Shown: positions 4,804 through 53,254 of the stretch, one piece after another | Numbering within the stretch: position 1 is the first letter of the stretch | Layout of the letters: every line of letters begins with the position of its first letter | Assembly (NCBI GenBank): GCA_029856105.1 | Contig: JAHQWH010000155.1 | Span: 1-64,000, forward strand | Direction of reading: 5' to 3' | Source: Promethearchaeia archaeon | Lineage (GTDB): Archaea; Asgardarchaeota; Lokiarchaeia; Sigyniarchaeales; SOKP01 | DNA: 64,000 nucleotides | Notes under the pieces: generated by a model | The model's database searches: none | What the model saw: the letters and a program-made list of their open reading frames with translations, nothing else | What the model was told of the DNA's origin: nothing | Made by a program: the position numbers and the translations under genes

Positions 4804-4918
4804 AAAATAGCAAATTATTAATATTTCTAATTAATAGCTTTTAATTAATTCTATAACAATTTATGTAATATTTAGCAATTTCATAAAATTTCGATTCCCT
4901 AACAATTTATTTTAAGGT

Positions 4919-7513
4919 GTGATAAAAATTATTGAAATTATTGATAATGCAAGTGAGAGAATAAAAAGGATTAGAAGCAGATTCCTTGATGATGTTCCTA
5001 TAATTTCCATAGAGCGAGCTCAACTTTATACAGAAAAATGGAATGAAACTGAAAATAAGGGCTACCCTCTTGGTGTTAGAGTTGCTCTTTCAATGAAGAA
5101 TGTTCTTGAAAATATGACTATCTATATAGATCCTGATGATCGAATTGCAGGAAAATGGACAGAAAATTTTATCGGAATACCTATTGACATAGAACGTGGA
5201 ATATGGAACAATGTTTTTGAAGTTGAAATTGATGCAAAAACAATGAATAAGTATATGAAAGAAAGCAATAAGAACTATATGTCATATATGATAAATAAAA
5301 TTGGACCTGATGGTCTTCGTGAATTACTTGAAAATACTAAAAAAATTGGTGCTCCTATTACAACTCTTGGAACTGATACTCTTGATAAAAGAAAAATCAA
5401 TCCATATCAAATTCGAGAAGAAGATAAAAAAATTCTATTGGAAGAACTTATTCCTCATTGGAAAAATAAAACACTCTCTGATATTCTAGAGAAAGAGTAT
5501 GCTAATTCTGATGTATATACAGGTGAATCGTATGAATTTTTAACTCACCTACCTTTAAAAACAGCTCAAAATGATATAGTTATATCCCCCTGTGCGGTGA
5601 TTGCTGAATGGCAAGGCCATTTAGTTCTTGATTTTGAAACGGTCTTAAAAAAAGGACTCTTAAATATGCAGAAGGAAGTCCAGGATGAGATCGAAAAAAA
5701 TAAGGATTTAACCGATGAACAAAAAGATTTCTTAAGGTCTATTGAAATAACACTTGAGGCTGTATTGATTTTTTCGCGTAGATTGGCAGAAAAGGTAAAA
5801 GAAGAATTAAATAAGACTACCAATGTTGATCGAAAAAAGGTACTTTCAGATATGTATGAAACATGTAAAAGAATCCCAAATTTTCCTCCAACTACACTTC
5901 GTGAAGCAATACAAACGTTTTGGATTGTTAAATCAACTGTTGATTTAACCTTACCCTTTAATGTGCATGGTCCAGGTCGTTCAGATCAACTCTTTTATCC
6001 TTTTTACCAATCAGACATTGAAAAAGGTCTTATCACTCGAGAAGAAGCGCGTGAATTATTTGAAGAGTTAGTTCTGAATATAATGAGTCATAATATCCGT
6101 CCTTATTCTAACGCTGTGAGTGATTTTAGCCAGCGATTTGAAGGTTCAGAACCAGTGACAGTAGGGGGCTTAAATGAAGAGGGAGAAGATGCCACAAACG
6201 AACTCACTTATGTAATTTTAGAAGCAGCAGACAGATCAAAAGCCGCTCTTAATTTTGCGGTTCGTTTTCATGATAAAACTCCTGAAGAACTATATATGAA
6301 GGTTGCTGAAATCCAATACAATGGATATTCAAGTATATCTATATTAAATGATAATGTATGTATTGAAGCATTAAAGAAACGAGGAATTAGAGAAAAAGAT
6401 GCAAATGCTTATTCAATCACTGGATGTGTAGACATGTGCAGTCCAGGTAAAACAGGAGGAATTGGTTTTTCGGCTCTTTTACTGTGTAGAACTTTAGATA
6501 TGACTCTTCGAAATGGCAACTGCTTAACAATAGGGGGTTTAGTAAATGATGTAGGATTAAAGACAGGAAATCCAGATAACTTTAATACATTCGACGAATT
6601 TCTCGATGCTTTTTCCCAACAAATAAATTTTGTTATTAAGAAAATTGTAGAAGCCACTACTATACGTGATAAACTATTTGCCAATTCTTATCCAGCACCT
6701 TTCATATCTGCATTTATGCGAGGATGCTTTAAAAACAAAAAAGATGTAACTCAAGGAGGTGCTTTTTACGATGCGGAAGGAATTCTTATAATGAATAGTA
6801 TTGCAAATATGGTTGATTCATTATATGTAATAAAAAAACTCATCTTTGAGCAAAAAAAATTCAATTTTAAAGATTTGATACAAGCAATTGATAAAAATTT
6901 CACTGATAATTACCAATTAATCCATAAACTGATTTTGGACCTTGATGGAAAATGGGGGAATGGAAACCCAGAATGTGACGAACTTGCTCGAGAAGTTACC
7001 ACACGGATATTTGAAGAAACTTATAAGTATAAAACTTATAGAGGTGGAGTTTATGCTCCCTTTGTTATTTCAATGACTTCTCACACATATGATGGGCGAA
7101 TAGGTATCGCAACGCCAGATGGTAGACTTGCAGGAAAACCATTTGCAGCAAGCTGTAATCCATACAATGTTGAGAAAAATGGACCAACTGGCGTCATTCG
7201 ATCAGTAGCTGCTCTTGATTTTCAGCATGTTTGCGGTTGTGCAGTTAACATACGAATGCATCCGTCTGGGATTGGAAAAACAAGAGAAACTAGAAAAAAG
7301 TGGATTTCTCTTATAAAAACTTACTTTAGTTTAGGAGGTCAACAGCTTCAACCTACGGTTGTATCTACAGAAGTGTTAAAAGCAGCCCAGCAAAACCCAG
7401 TACCATATAGAAATATAGTTGTTAAAGTTGGAGGTTACTCCGCTTATTTCACTGACTTAGGAAAGGAAATTCAAGAGGAGATCATTTCTAGAACAGAACA
7501 TACTAGGGTTTAA
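4919..7513 (+). CDS. Glycyl radical enzyme (pyruvate formate-lyase / diol dehydratase superfamily)
   Basis: 864 aa; active-site Cys in SITGCVDMCSPGKTGG; C-terminal glycyl radical loop KVGGYSAYFTDLGKEIQEEIISRTEH; listed GTG start overlaps the SD, ATT at 4928 is an alternative. Confidence 0.93.
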   Translation: MIKIIEIIDNASERIKRIRSRFLDDVPIISIERAQLYTEKWNETENKGYPLGVRVALSMKNVLENMTIYIDPDDRIAGKWTENFIGIPIDIERGIWNNVFEVEIDAKTMNKYMKESNKNYMSYMINKIGPDGLRELLENTKKIGAPITTLGTDTLDKRKINPYQIREEDKKILLEELIPHWKNKTLSDILEKEYANSDVYTGESYEFLTHLPLKTAQNDIVISPCAVIAEWQGHLVLDFETVLKKGLLNMQKEVQDEIEKNKDLTDEQKDFLRSIEITLEAVLIFSRRLAEKVKEELNKTTNVDRKKVLSDMYETCKRIPNFPPTTLREAIQTFWIVKSTVDLTLPFNVHGPGRSDQLFYPFYQSDIEKGLITREEARELFEELVLNIMSHNIRPYSNAVSDFSQRFEGSEPVTVGGLNEEGEDATNELTYVILEAADRSKAALNFAVRFHDKTPEELYMKVAEIQYNGYSSISILNDNVCIEALKKRGIREKDANAYSITGCVDMCSPGKTGGIGFSALLLCRTLDMTLRNGNCLTIGGLVNDVGLKTGNPDNFNTFDEFLDAFSQQINFVIKKIVEATTIRDKLFANSYPAPFISAFMRGCFKNKKDVTQGGAFYDAEGILIMNSIANMVDSLYVIKKLIFEQKKFNFKDLIQAIDKNFTDNYQLIHKLILDLDGKWGNGNPECDELAREVTTRIFEETYKYKTYRGGVYAPFVISMTSHTYDGRIGIATPDGRLAGKPFAASCNPYNVEKNGPTGVIRSVAALDFQHVCGCAVNIRMHPSGIGKTRETRKKWISLIKTYFSLGGQQLQPTVVSTEVLKAAQQNPVPYRNIVVKVGGYSAYFTDLGKEIQEEIISRTEHTRV

Positions 7514-31984: not shown

Positions 31985-32015
31985 TAATATAATTAAAATT
32001 TTTAGGTGAATAATA

Positions 32016-33212
32016 ATTTCTTTTAATTTCGAATTAATCTCGTTAGAAAAATCTTTTGAAGAAAGACCAGAAATATCTATAGATGAAGATGTTAAAAAAT
32101 TTAAAGAATTCATTAAAGAAAGAAGAGCTAAATGGACTGAAGAAGAAAAGATCGAACTTGAAACAGACAAATTTGATAACGATGAGAGTTTAAGAAACAC
32201 AAATTCATTATTTAGTGAGATGAACCATCGACCATTAAAGGGTGAATTGTTCGATTATATAAATAACGATTGTAAAATAATTGGTTTTGATGAGAGTTCA
32301 AATACACTCAGTGGAACTTATGCTAGATTAGCTTCTTTCAAATTTGGAGAATGTCAAGTAACTTTTAAAGATGGAAAATATCACAAAGAAAAGATTATGT
32401 ATAAACCTATTACAACCTACATTGAAGATAACGAACATAAGCTTATTATATATAAGACTGTAATTGAAAATTTCGTAAAAACAATAAAACGGAATTTTTA
32501 CAAAAGTAATTTGAAAGATAAAGTTGATAAATTAGAAGAGTGGTACGAGTCGACATATAAAAAAAAGATTGAAGAGCATATCAGTGCACACTCTTACTAT
32601 TACCCAACAATGGGACATGTAGTAGATAGGATAAGAACTGCTGATGAAATTTTAAAATCTTTAGTTAGGATTAAAGAAGAAAGTAATTGGGGGAAAAATA
32701 AAAATGTTGTATTTCTTGGAGATGGCATTCAAATGTTTCGCCAACATATTTTTCCTCCTGTCGCATTCACGGAATTCTTTTATAGGTTCATTCAATCGTA
32801 TGAAATTAATTACTATAGTTTTTCGAAGACATGTCGCTTAAGGGATGCTCAAGGTAATTTTTTATTGCCAATATGGTCAGAGATATATGAGGATAACTTC
32901 TTAGTTGAATTACCGGATCTTTCTAAGTATACTAAAAGTAAAGCATATCTTACGAGGTTGCAAAAAGATAGCTCAGCTCTTAGATTTGATATCTGCGATG
33001 ATTTAGATACAAAAGACGCAAAGTATATTTTAAAGAATTTGATTCCATATTCTCCACAAGGGTATCCCCTTAGTTTGGTGGGGGCACACGAAGCAAGTAC
33101 TTTATTGGTGTCGGAATATAATAAGTTTGATGCGGCTTTCATGGAACTTCAATACGATAAAAAAACAAAAAAATACGCTCAAAAATGGAGACAAAAAGTA
33201 TTAGGAAAATAA
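32016..33212 (+). CDS. nurA: NurA nuclease; proposed start ATT at 32016 (or ATA 32010/32013) rather than ATG 32220
   Basis: Operon position between herA and mre11; motif VVFLGDGIQMF; frame open from 32010 with no ATG/GTG/TTG before 32220; SD AGGTGA at 32004-32009. Confidence 0.75.
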   Translation: MSFNFELISLEKSFEERPEISIDEDVKKFKEFIKERRAKWTEEEKIELETDKFDNDESLRNTNSLFSEMNHRPLKGELFDYINNDCKIIGFDESSNTLSGTYARLASFKFGECQVTFKDGKYHKEKIMYKPITTYIEDNEHKLIIYKTVIENFVKTIKRNFYKSNLKDKVDKLEEWYESTYKKKIEEHISAHSYYYPTMGHVVDRIRTADEILKSLVRIKEESNWGKNKNVVFLGDGIQMFRQHIFPPVAFTEFFYRFIQSYEINYYSFSKTCRLRDAQGNFLLPIWSEIYEDNFLVELPDLSKYTKSKAYLTRLQKDSSALRFDICDDLDTKDAKYILKNLIPYSPQGYPLSLVGAHEASTLLVSEYNKFDAAFMELQYDKKTKKYAQKWRQKVLGK

Positions 33213-50222: not shown

Positions 50223-51353
50223 ATGATTATGAGTTTAAACAACGAAAACATAGACCTGTATCGAAAATTACAGGAGCATCTTGATAAAATGCCATTAGGC
50301 TTTCCTTCAACAAAATCAGGATCTGATATTAAGTTATTAAAACGTCTATTCGCGCCCCAAGAAGCTAAAATTGCTACATTTTTAAAGTTTGGATGGGAGA
50401 GAGACCTTGAACCTTTATATACCATTTACGAACGTGCGAAAGAGACTGGAATCTCAAAAGAAGAATTAGAACAAGCTTTAGATAAAATGGTTCAAAAAGG
50501 ACTTCTTATGTTTAAAAGGAAGGCAGAAGAGAAATATTACGGTAATGCTTTACTCATGATTGGAATGTTTGAGTTCCAAGTAAACAAGCTCACAAAGGAA
50601 TTTATAGAAGATTTTCACGATTATTTTGGTAAAAAATGGCTTGCGGAAACTATAAAAGTGAAGGGTGCTCAATTACGGGTAATTCCAGTTGAGCAAAGTA
50701 TAGAATCCGGTCATAATGTTAGTACTTACGATGATGTCATAAAGCTTCTTGATACAACCGATGGACCATACATGGTAACTAATTGTCTTTGCAGGCAAAT
50801 AAAGGACATCTTAGAACAACCTTGTAAAGCGACTTCTAGGAGAGAATTATGTTTAGCTTTTGGATTTGCAGCAGAACTATATATAGAACAAGGATGGGGG
50901 CGTTCTATAAGTAAAGATGAAGTTCTTGAAATTCTACGAAAAAATGAGGAAGAAGGATTAGTGCTTCAACCTGACAACTCACAAAATTTAACAGTTATTT
51001 GTAGCTGCTGTAGTTGCTGTTGTGAAGGCTTATCAAAAATTAAATTATTACCAAATCCCGGAGATTTTACAATAACTAACTTTTACGCTGATGTGGAACC
51101 TGATCTATGCTCAGGTTGTGGAACTTGCGTTGAGATTTGCCCAATGGAGGCAATAACGCTCATTGATGATATATCCTCGATCGAGCGGAAACGTTGTATA
51201 GGATGTGGAAATTGTGTTATTAAATGTCCCTCTGAAGCAATTAAACTCCATAAAAGAAAAAGACAATTTATTCCATATCCGACAATGGATGATTTATTCG
51301 ATAAAATAATGGAAAGAAAAGTAAAACTTAAAGAAAAAGCTTTAGAAAGATAA
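50223..51353 (+). CDS. Ferredoxin-domain protein (2x 4Fe-4S) with Cys-rich motif
   Basis: CSCCSCCCEGLSKIKLLPNPGDF; CSGCGTCVEICPMEAI; CIGCGNCVIKCPSEAI. Confidence 0.85.
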   Translation: MIMSLNNENIDLYRKLQEHLDKMPLGFPSTKSGSDIKLLKRLFAPQEAKIATFLKFGWERDLEPLYTIYERAKETGISKEELEQALDKMVQKGLLMFKRKAEEKYYGNALLMIGMFEFQVNKLTKEFIEDFHDYFGKKWLAETIKVKGAQLRVIPVEQSIESGHNVSTYDDVIKLLDTTDGPYMVTNCLCRQIKDILEQPCKATSRRELCLAFGFAAELYIEQGWGRSISKDEVLEILRKNEEEGLVLQPDNSQNLTVICSCCSCCCEGLSKIKLLPNPGDFTITNFYADVEPDLCSGCGTCVEICPMEAITLIDDISSIERKRCIGCGNCVIKCPSEAIKLHKRKRQFIPYPTMDDLFDKIMERKVKLKEKALER

Positions 51354-51414
51354 GTAATTTTATATAAAATAAAATTTCTATGTTTTCTTAAAAATATTTA
51401 AGTTCAATTATTTT

Positions 51415-51978
51415 TTATTTCTTTTTTAATATTATGTAAAGAGAATCATCATCATGTGTTTCTTTATATGTTTTAATCTCTACTATTTCATAATCATTTT
51501 CAACTAAATTTATTAAAGATTCTTTAGAATAATATACAAAAAGCAAATCTCCATATCTCTCCTCTTTATCTCCCCTCCATAATGAATGGAAAAGAATTCC
51601 ATTTTCATTAAGCAAATCTTTTTGTTTTTTTAACGATGTTTTAAATTCACTTTTAGTAAGATGTTGAAGAACTTTATTGGAATATATACAATCAAAACTT
51701 CTATTTGTATCTAATTCTCTAGCATCTAATACAAAAACATCTGCATCTTCATGCTTTTTCTTATATAAATCGACAAAGAGAGATGAAATATCTGTTCCAG
51801 TTTCTTTAAAAATTTCGCTTAGAATATCTAAATCTTTTCCCTCTCCCATTCCTAGCTCTAACACTGTTGATCCCGCAGGGAGATGAGTTTTTAAAATTTC
51901 AATTAATTCTTTCCCTTCATAACCCTCAGACATCTTGATATATTCCCTTATATTTTTTTCGTCATCCCAATATCCCAC
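51415..51978 (-). CDS. Class I SAM-dependent methyltransferase
   Basis: STVLELGMGEGKDLDILSE, FDCIYSNKVLQHL. Confidence 0.85.
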   Translation of the reverse strand: MGYWDDEKNIREYIKMSEGYEGKELIEILKTHLPAGSTVLELGMGEGKDLDILSEIFKETGTDISSLFVDLYKKKHEDADVFVLDARELDTNRSFDCIYSNKVLQHLTKSEFKTSLKKQKDLLNENGILFHSLWRGDKEERYGDLLFVYYSKESLINLVENDYEIVEIKTYKETHDDDSLYIILKKK

Positions 51979-52108
51979 AAAAAATCATCCCTTTGAACAA
52001 ATAATAATCTAATACATATTAAAAATATAATTCTTAAATATGAGAATAAATGTTTAAAAACAGTTAAGTTCAATTATAGTATGTATTTGTATTAAATTTT
52101 AATGTGAT

Positions 52109-53254
52109 ATTAATATATATTCAAAACCAAAAAAAATAGGTCCAATAGAGATTAAAAATCGATTTGTAAGATCGGCTACATTTGAAGGAATGGCAACTGA
52201 AGATGGTTATGTTACTGATCAGCACATCGAACTTTATAAAACTTTAGCTAAAGGAGGAGTAGGTTTAATAATTACGGGTTATGCATATGTTCAAGAGAGT
52301 GGTAAAGCATTCGAAAAACAAACTGGAGTTAGTAGAGATGATTATATACCGGGTTTAAGTAGAATTGCTGAAACAGTTCATAAAAATGGAGATAATTGCA
52401 AAGTTGCTTTACAAATTGCACATTGTGGACATCAATCTCGTTATCTTGAAAATACAATAGCCCCTTCTGCTCAGGAGGAAAAGTTAACCAGAAAGATACC
52501 GCGCGAAATGACTAGAGAAGAAATAAGAGATACTATTGATGCTTTCTCCCAAGCGATCAGAAGAGCAAAAGAAGCTGGTTTCGACGCTGTGCAGTTACAT
52601 GGAGCTCATGGATATATCATAACTCAATTTCTTTCTCCTTATATAAACAAAAGAACGGATGATTATGGGGGAAGCATAGAGAATAGAACTAGGTTCCTTG
52701 AAGAAATTTACAATAAAAGTGTTGAGTTGGTTGGAAAGGAATTTCCAATCTTTATAAAAATGAATGGTGTTGATTTTATAGAGGGAGGAACTACTATAAG
52801 TGAATCTACTGAGGTTGCTAAAAGGTTAGAAAATATAGGGTATGCCGCAATTGAAGTCAGTGCAGGAATATGGGAAGTTGCAAAATTAAAAAAGAAAGAT
52901 CTTGGTTGGAAATCAACATTTTTACCAGAAAGTCGAATCTTTATTGGAACGATGAATGAACCTGCTTATAATCTAGCTTATGCAAAAGAATTCAAGAAAG
53001 TTCTTGATATACCCGTTATTCTAATTGGAGGTATTAACTCCCTCGATCTAGTAGAACAAATATTATCTAATGAAAGTGCTGACTTCGTGTCATTTTCTAG
53101 ACCCTTAATCCGAGAACCAGATCTTCCTAATAGATGGATGAAAGGTATTGGAAACCAAAAAGTAGATTGTATATTCTGCAATGGTTGTTTAGCTACGACA
53201 GTTACTCCAGGCTTACGATGTGCTAAATTACATGAGTCTAGTGCAGGTAATTAA
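52109..53254 (+). CDS. Old yellow enzyme family NADH:flavin oxidoreductase; start must be non-ATG (ATT 52109 or ATA 52115)
   Basis: Conserved N-terminus YSKPKKIGPIEIKNRFVRSATFEG lies in frame upstream of first ATG (52190); frame opens after TAA at 52100-52102. Confidence 0.88.
   Translation: MNIYSKPKKIGPIEIKNRFVRSATFEGMATEDGYVTDQHIELYKTLAKGGVGLIITGYAYVQESGKAFEKQTGVSRDDYIPGLSRIAETVHKNGDNCKVALQIAHCGHQSRYLENTIAPSAQEEKLTRKIPREMTREEIRDTIDAFSQAIRRAKEAGFDAVQLHGAHGYIITQFLSPYINKRTDDYGGSIENRTRFLEEIYNKSVELVGKEFPIFIKMNGVDFIEGGTTISESTEVAKRLENIGYAAIEVSAGIWEVAKLKKKDLGWKSTFLPESRIFIGTMNEPAYNLAYAKEFKKVLDIPVILIGGINSLDLVEQILSNESADFVSFSRPLIREPDLPNRWMKGIGNQKVDCIFCNGCLATTVTPGLRCAKLHESSAGN

Follow-up and report, generated by a model that had tools for sequence, protein, structure and literature searches.

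The gene of an old yellow enzyme (OYE)-family flavin oxidoreductase in a Lokiarchaeial MAG is probably translated from an AUA codon, judging by the comparison with related genomes, and would represent one instance of AUH starts (AUA, AUU or AUC) occurring across the lineage. The best reading of the sequences compared is that this lineage may tolerate a mismatch in the third position of the start codon (AUA/AUU/AUC) in SD-led genes. Somewhat less firmly, it can be supposed that the Lokiarchaeial genus, and partly its family, has relaxed third-position discrimination of starts, so that AUH codons are regular in SD-led genes and have long been kept by selection even in ribosomal protein genes, possibly setting or regulating expression, with the initiator tRNA unchanged.

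The window is the whole stretch of DNA that was analysed, 64,000 nucleotides in length. The genome to which it belongs is labelled G000 and the related genomes G001 and onwards; siblings of G000 are recorded as Candidatus Lokiarchaeota. Orthologues were searched for in 97 related genomes, and the survey of starts covered about 1.65 Mb of stretches in which G000 and its relatives were compared. The 3′ end of the 16S rRNA of G000 itself, GGATCACCTCCT, was used as the anti-SD.

The OYE gene and the position of its start

The frame of the OYE gene follows the in-frame stop TAA at positions 52100–52102 of the plus strand, continues with the codons TGT GAT ATT AAT ATA TAT TCA AAA CCA and remains open to TAA 53252–53254, with no internal stop or indel. 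The sequence-only reading had stated that this frame contains no ATG, GTG or TTG before position 52190 and that an SD-like GTGAT lies at 52104–52108, and both observations were confirmed. The first canonical codon is ATG 52190, which is codon +25 from ATA 52115, and GTGAT, a 5-nt match to the anti-SD, is located 6 nt before this ATA. With the proposed start codon ATA at 52115–52117, the gene occupies positions 52115–53254 of the plus strand and encodes 379 amino acids plus stop.

The protein gives a full-length match to the Pfam family PF00724 (Oxidored_FMN; E 6.7e-69, profile positions 4–339 of 342). Since the match starts at residue 8 of the protein (profile position 4), the N-terminus encoded upstream of 52190 is part of the OYE domain, as had been thought earlier. 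The N-terminal flavin-binding segment YSKPKKIG.IEIKNRF.RSAT is in frame and aligns without gaps to the orthologues, and the C-terminal part carries a CxxCxxxC...C cysteine motif, like 2,4-dienoyl-CoA reductase. In the domain, the N-terminal segment and the cysteine motif the protein is similar to the N-terminal domain of OYE and 2,4-dienoyl-CoA reductase (PF00724; PDB 3kru, 1ps9), and it has no clear oddity with respect to known OYEs except the start codon. The matches to the NamA, mycofactocin OYE and BaiCD models were partial, and all of them were under the cut-offs.

Six close orthologues were found in the same genus (identity 96% for G001, 94% for G014, 93% for G010, 85% for G008 and 81% for G007; G016, partial). 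The alignment of orthologues, which the sequence-only reading had suggested as a check, placed an ATG at the codon corresponding to ATA 52115 in all six, followed by TAT TCA AAA CCA in five of them and by TAT TCG TCA CCT in G007. Position 52115 is therefore the ancestral start, from which G000 differs by a single G-to-A change, and the sequences are best read as a recent AUG-to-AUA switch on the branch of G000 itself. The SD is AGGTGAT in G001 and G016, and G010 possesses the same GTGAT as G000, with ATG. Of the two codons considered earlier as the start, ATT 52109 and ATA 52115, the second was retained, being aligned with the ATG of the six orthologues and located 6 nt behind GTGAT. ATT 52109 was rejected: it abuts the SD-like motif, and its counterpart in the orthologues is a non-start codon or belongs to the spacer.

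Several other OYE genes were considered as AUH cases and set aside. The paralogues of G034, G037, G049 and G078 have ATA, ATT or CTG at the start column and are ambiguous due to an in-frame GTG three codons upstream, inside the SD-like motif; such GTGs may be SDs and not starts. The OYE genes of G019, G059, G046 and G057 start at an ATG located one to a few codons upstream.

The surroundings of the gene differ as well. In G001, the OYE gene is located close behind a ferredoxin-domain gene (window 50223–51353), and in G000 a minus-strand methyltransferase gene (51415–51978) sits between the two. The DNA directly upstream of OYE is common to G000, G010 and G014. The difference in spacing between the ferredoxin-domain and OYE genes (window 51354–52114) was read as an insertion or deletion altering the operon.

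AUH starts in other genes

The OYE start had been treated as an isolated case; however, further AUH starts were found in the genes of uS4, uS11, a Ras-like GTPase and a CoA-transferase, and in a second gene of the window. This second gene (32016–33209 of the plus strand, within ORF 32010–33209) encodes a conserved protein to which the Pfam search assigned no family. It starts at ATT 32016–32018 behind the SD AGGTGA (32004–32009), and in G000 no ATG, GTG or TTG occurs for 68 codons after the ATT. Across 14 species the codon is ATT in 12, which span two genera (g1, plus G026 of g4), ATA in G002 and ATG in G020, where the counterpart of the protein begins M-SFNFELISLEK. The SD match varies between species from 5 to 7 nt. 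In G003, G013 and G016 a stop is located two codons upstream, with one codon between. In the same three genomes and in G007–G009 and G021 a canonical codon is present 6–9 codons downstream, so for these seven the case depends on sequence conservation and on where the SD lies.

The most extensive series concerns uS4, whose N-terminus MGDPRRLKKK is nearly invariant. Its only possible start is ATC (directly before GGA GAT/C CC.) in nine species of this genus: G000, G002, G003, G004, G007, G008, G010, G014 and G017. All nine have an in-frame stop one or two codons upstream with no ATG, GTG or TTG in between, the next canonical codon is found 22–43 codons downstream, and the GTG within the SD stands in another frame. 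In each of the nine, AGGTGA(T), an SD match of 6–7 nt, is located 5–6 nt before the ATC, and the spacer sequences vary between species. The repetition of ATC in nine assemblies rules out a sequencing error for uS4. The gene starts with ATG or TTG in 20 other genomes (ATG in G005, G011 and the sampled other genera; TTG in G080). The uS4 of G023, with ATA, was not accepted as a clear AUH case, since an in-frame GTG lies nine nt upstream. SD matches of 6 nt or more were found in 10 of 10 AUH uS4 genomes, G023 counted, versus 11 of the 20 remaining genomes (Fisher p = 0.013, which is nominal because the genomes are related). In several species uS4 comes directly after the stop codon of a preceding frame, taken for uS13 on the basis of sequence only, and thus re-initiation may help.

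Some 183-aa ORFs near uS4 turned out to be HdrA fragments bounded by in-frame TGA and were excluded as evidence. In these HdrA-like genes (L214:14606–15154, L216:4864–5412 and orthologues), the in-frame TGA mimics start-less ORFs; the context VCR(TGA)GVNI suggests that it encodes selenocysteine.

The uS11 gene starts with ATT in G014 and with ATG in the others, and the gene of the Ras-like GTPase starts with ATT in G002 and G008 and with ATG in G010, G014 and G026. The CoA-transferase gene of G008 has ATT behind GAGGAG and a canonical start in the relatives. Further AUH codons, supported by an SD but not by the ATG of an orthologue, were found in the genes of an AAA ATPase, a GNAT protein, a helicase, a radical SAM protein, an amidohydrolase, a DNA methylase (the same in G000 and G014) and a pyruvate formate-lyase-like (PFL-like) glycyl radical enzyme (window 4928; G010). 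The candidate start of the PFL-like gene is ATT 4928–4930 of the plus strand, preceded by the SD AGGTG at 4915–4919. The sole nearby canonical codon, GTG 4919–4921, overlaps the SD (AAGGTGTGATAAAAATT, window 4913–4933) and is replaced by GGG in G010.

Among SD-led ORFs without a canonical start, AUH codons accounted for 19 of the 58 codons in frame at SD distance, compared with a background of 11.6% (p = 1.7e-5). When an SD hexamer was not followed by a canonical start, an in-frame AUH followed in 16 of 21 cases, the share with permuted motifs being 30% (odds ratio 7.6, p = 1.5e-5); this test used 1,332 ORFs, with the regions fetched for uS4 left out. The raw count of ORFs with SD and AUH was not above that of permuted motifs, being reached by 33 of 300, and only the proportion stands out. 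The surveyed ORFs include some false positives and a few mutual orthologues, and the related genomes are not independent. For these reasons, the weight was put on individual genes. When missing starts were sought without requiring an orthologue start at the same column, mostly conserved non-coding leaders came up, and this approach was abandoned.

Constraint on the OYE frame and alternative explanations

The dN/dS of OYE is 0.135 for the pair G000–G001 and 0.11–0.12 for G000 compared with G007 and G008. The private substitutions comprise 12 synonymous and six non-synonymous ones in G000, and 11 and five in G001. As these values are similar to those of the relatives, the frame is not visibly decaying. 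By its substitution pattern the frame has been constrained during most of the branch, which does not date the ATA.

The alternative that survives best, though it seems unlikely, is a loss of the start: after the G-to-A change OYE would be translated hardly or not at all and would have become a pseudogene very recently in this population. Such a loss would be compatible with the change being present in one genome only, with the 5-nt SD match, which is weaker than most conserved AUH cases and weaker than in G001 and G016 (GTGAT versus AGGTGAT), and with three private residues, S10P, R106H and L120Q, none of which is listed at these sites for 53 homologues. The three odd residues give a faint hint of relaxed selection, yet G010, whose gene starts with ATG, is similar. 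In its OYE, private amino-acid changes are in excess (seven non-synonymous versus five synonymous), partly at otherwise conserved sites (R130C, E136V, K179I). The pseudogene explanation is countered by the lack in G000 of any stop, any indel and any surplus of amino-acid changes, by a dN/dS like that of the relatives and by the AUH starts kept in other conserved genes of the lineage.

Still less probable is that base 52117 is a sequencing or consensus error or represents a minority variant. This would account for a single-base difference occurring in one MAG; against this, per-base errors are rare, and the start codons of G000 that were compared with those of the relatives numbered only about 80. 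Furthermore, the uS4 and 32016 cases, repeated across many assemblies, would be left unexplained. Translation from ATG 52190, the first canonical start codon, with the upstream part untranslated, can be practically discounted, as the OYE domain would lose 25 conserved residues that are present in all orthologues, each of the six starting upstream, at the position of 52115, and not at 52190, as the sequence-only reading had allowed for.

Comparison with known systems

Isolated AUH starts are already known, and archaeal ones have been proposed singly, for L12ae and atubA. A review names AUG, GUG and UUG as archaeal start codons and describes SDs as not prevalent in one Lokiarchaeote (PMC7531240; also PMC12993045). 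No report of regular or lineage-wide AUH starts in Lokiarchaeia was found in the open-access literature searched.

In S. aureus, AUA and AUU starts behind extended SDs give about 10–30% of the AUG level (PMC13009471). The genes infC, ccpN, cvfC1 and citZ likewise have AUA or AUU behind a strong SD, some of them conserved, and the AUA start of citZ is lineage-specific, like that of OYE (PMC13009471). The staphylococcal cases are bacterial, concern a handful of genes and were measured (PMC13009471), whereas the Lokiarchaeal ones are archaeal, comprise more genes, include AUC and a ribosomal protein, and are deduced from DNA sequence. Among archaea, the gene of the ribosomal protein L12ae of Staphylothermus marinus likewise lacks a canonical start, and an ATC start was proposed for it through alignment (PMC2678158). 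This concerns one gene in one genome of another phylum, while the Lokiarchaeal ATC of uS4 has persisted in nine species. For atubA of Kariarchaeaceae, likewise Asgard, N-terminal conservation and RBS spacing pointed to ATT, preceded by an RBS, as the likely start (PMC13394414); this was a single gene outside Lokiarchaeia, treated as a rarity and not accompanied by a survey. In 36 groups of bacteria and archaea, one of 61,358 ancestral AUG starts changed to AUU, and no change to AUA or AUC was reported (PMC5622118). Against this background, an AUC kept in a ribosomal protein gene through nine species is unusual.

Common gene callers accept ATG, GTG and TTG only and so would truncate or miss such Lokiarchaeial genes, uS4 included. 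Missed starts matter here because the gene content of Lokiarchaeia, relatives of eukaryotes, is read most closely. The cases also make it testable which part of archaeal initiation (aIF1, rRNA, the tails of uS9 and uS13) sets the fidelity of start codons. The lineage is close to eukaryotes, in which SD-led initiation gave way to AUG scanning.

Initiator tRNA and a possible mechanism

The initiator tRNA has the anticodon CAU in all 12 genomes, including G000 (C34:34650–34711), as well as the acceptor ends AGC...GCT (A1-U72) and the anticodon arm GGG-CTCAT. A changed anticodon was thereby rejected as the explanation; it is conceivable that a base is modified or that there is a further, unusual initiator. 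In all alternative starts the first two bases, A1 and U2, are retained, and only position 3 varies. Most simply, the CAU anticodon may pair with AUA, AUU and AUC by a third-position mismatch stabilised by SD pairing, and AUH codons would then serve as starts in a minority of SD-led genes of this genus, some of them essential and long conserved. For OYE, the usual initiator tRNA would start translation at ATA 52115, positioned by the SD, and the first residue would be Met. The output of OYE is likely to be lowered, not abolished, as its AUA is recent and its SD is weaker than in long-established cases; the analogy with S. aureus also leads one to expect a lower output.

The initiator tRNA genes contain intron-like insertions in several places: beside the anticodon in G003, G005, G008 and G017, before the T arm in G007 and G026, and in the T arm in G000, G004, G005, G007, G010, G014 and G026. 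Those of G002 and G029 have no such insertions.
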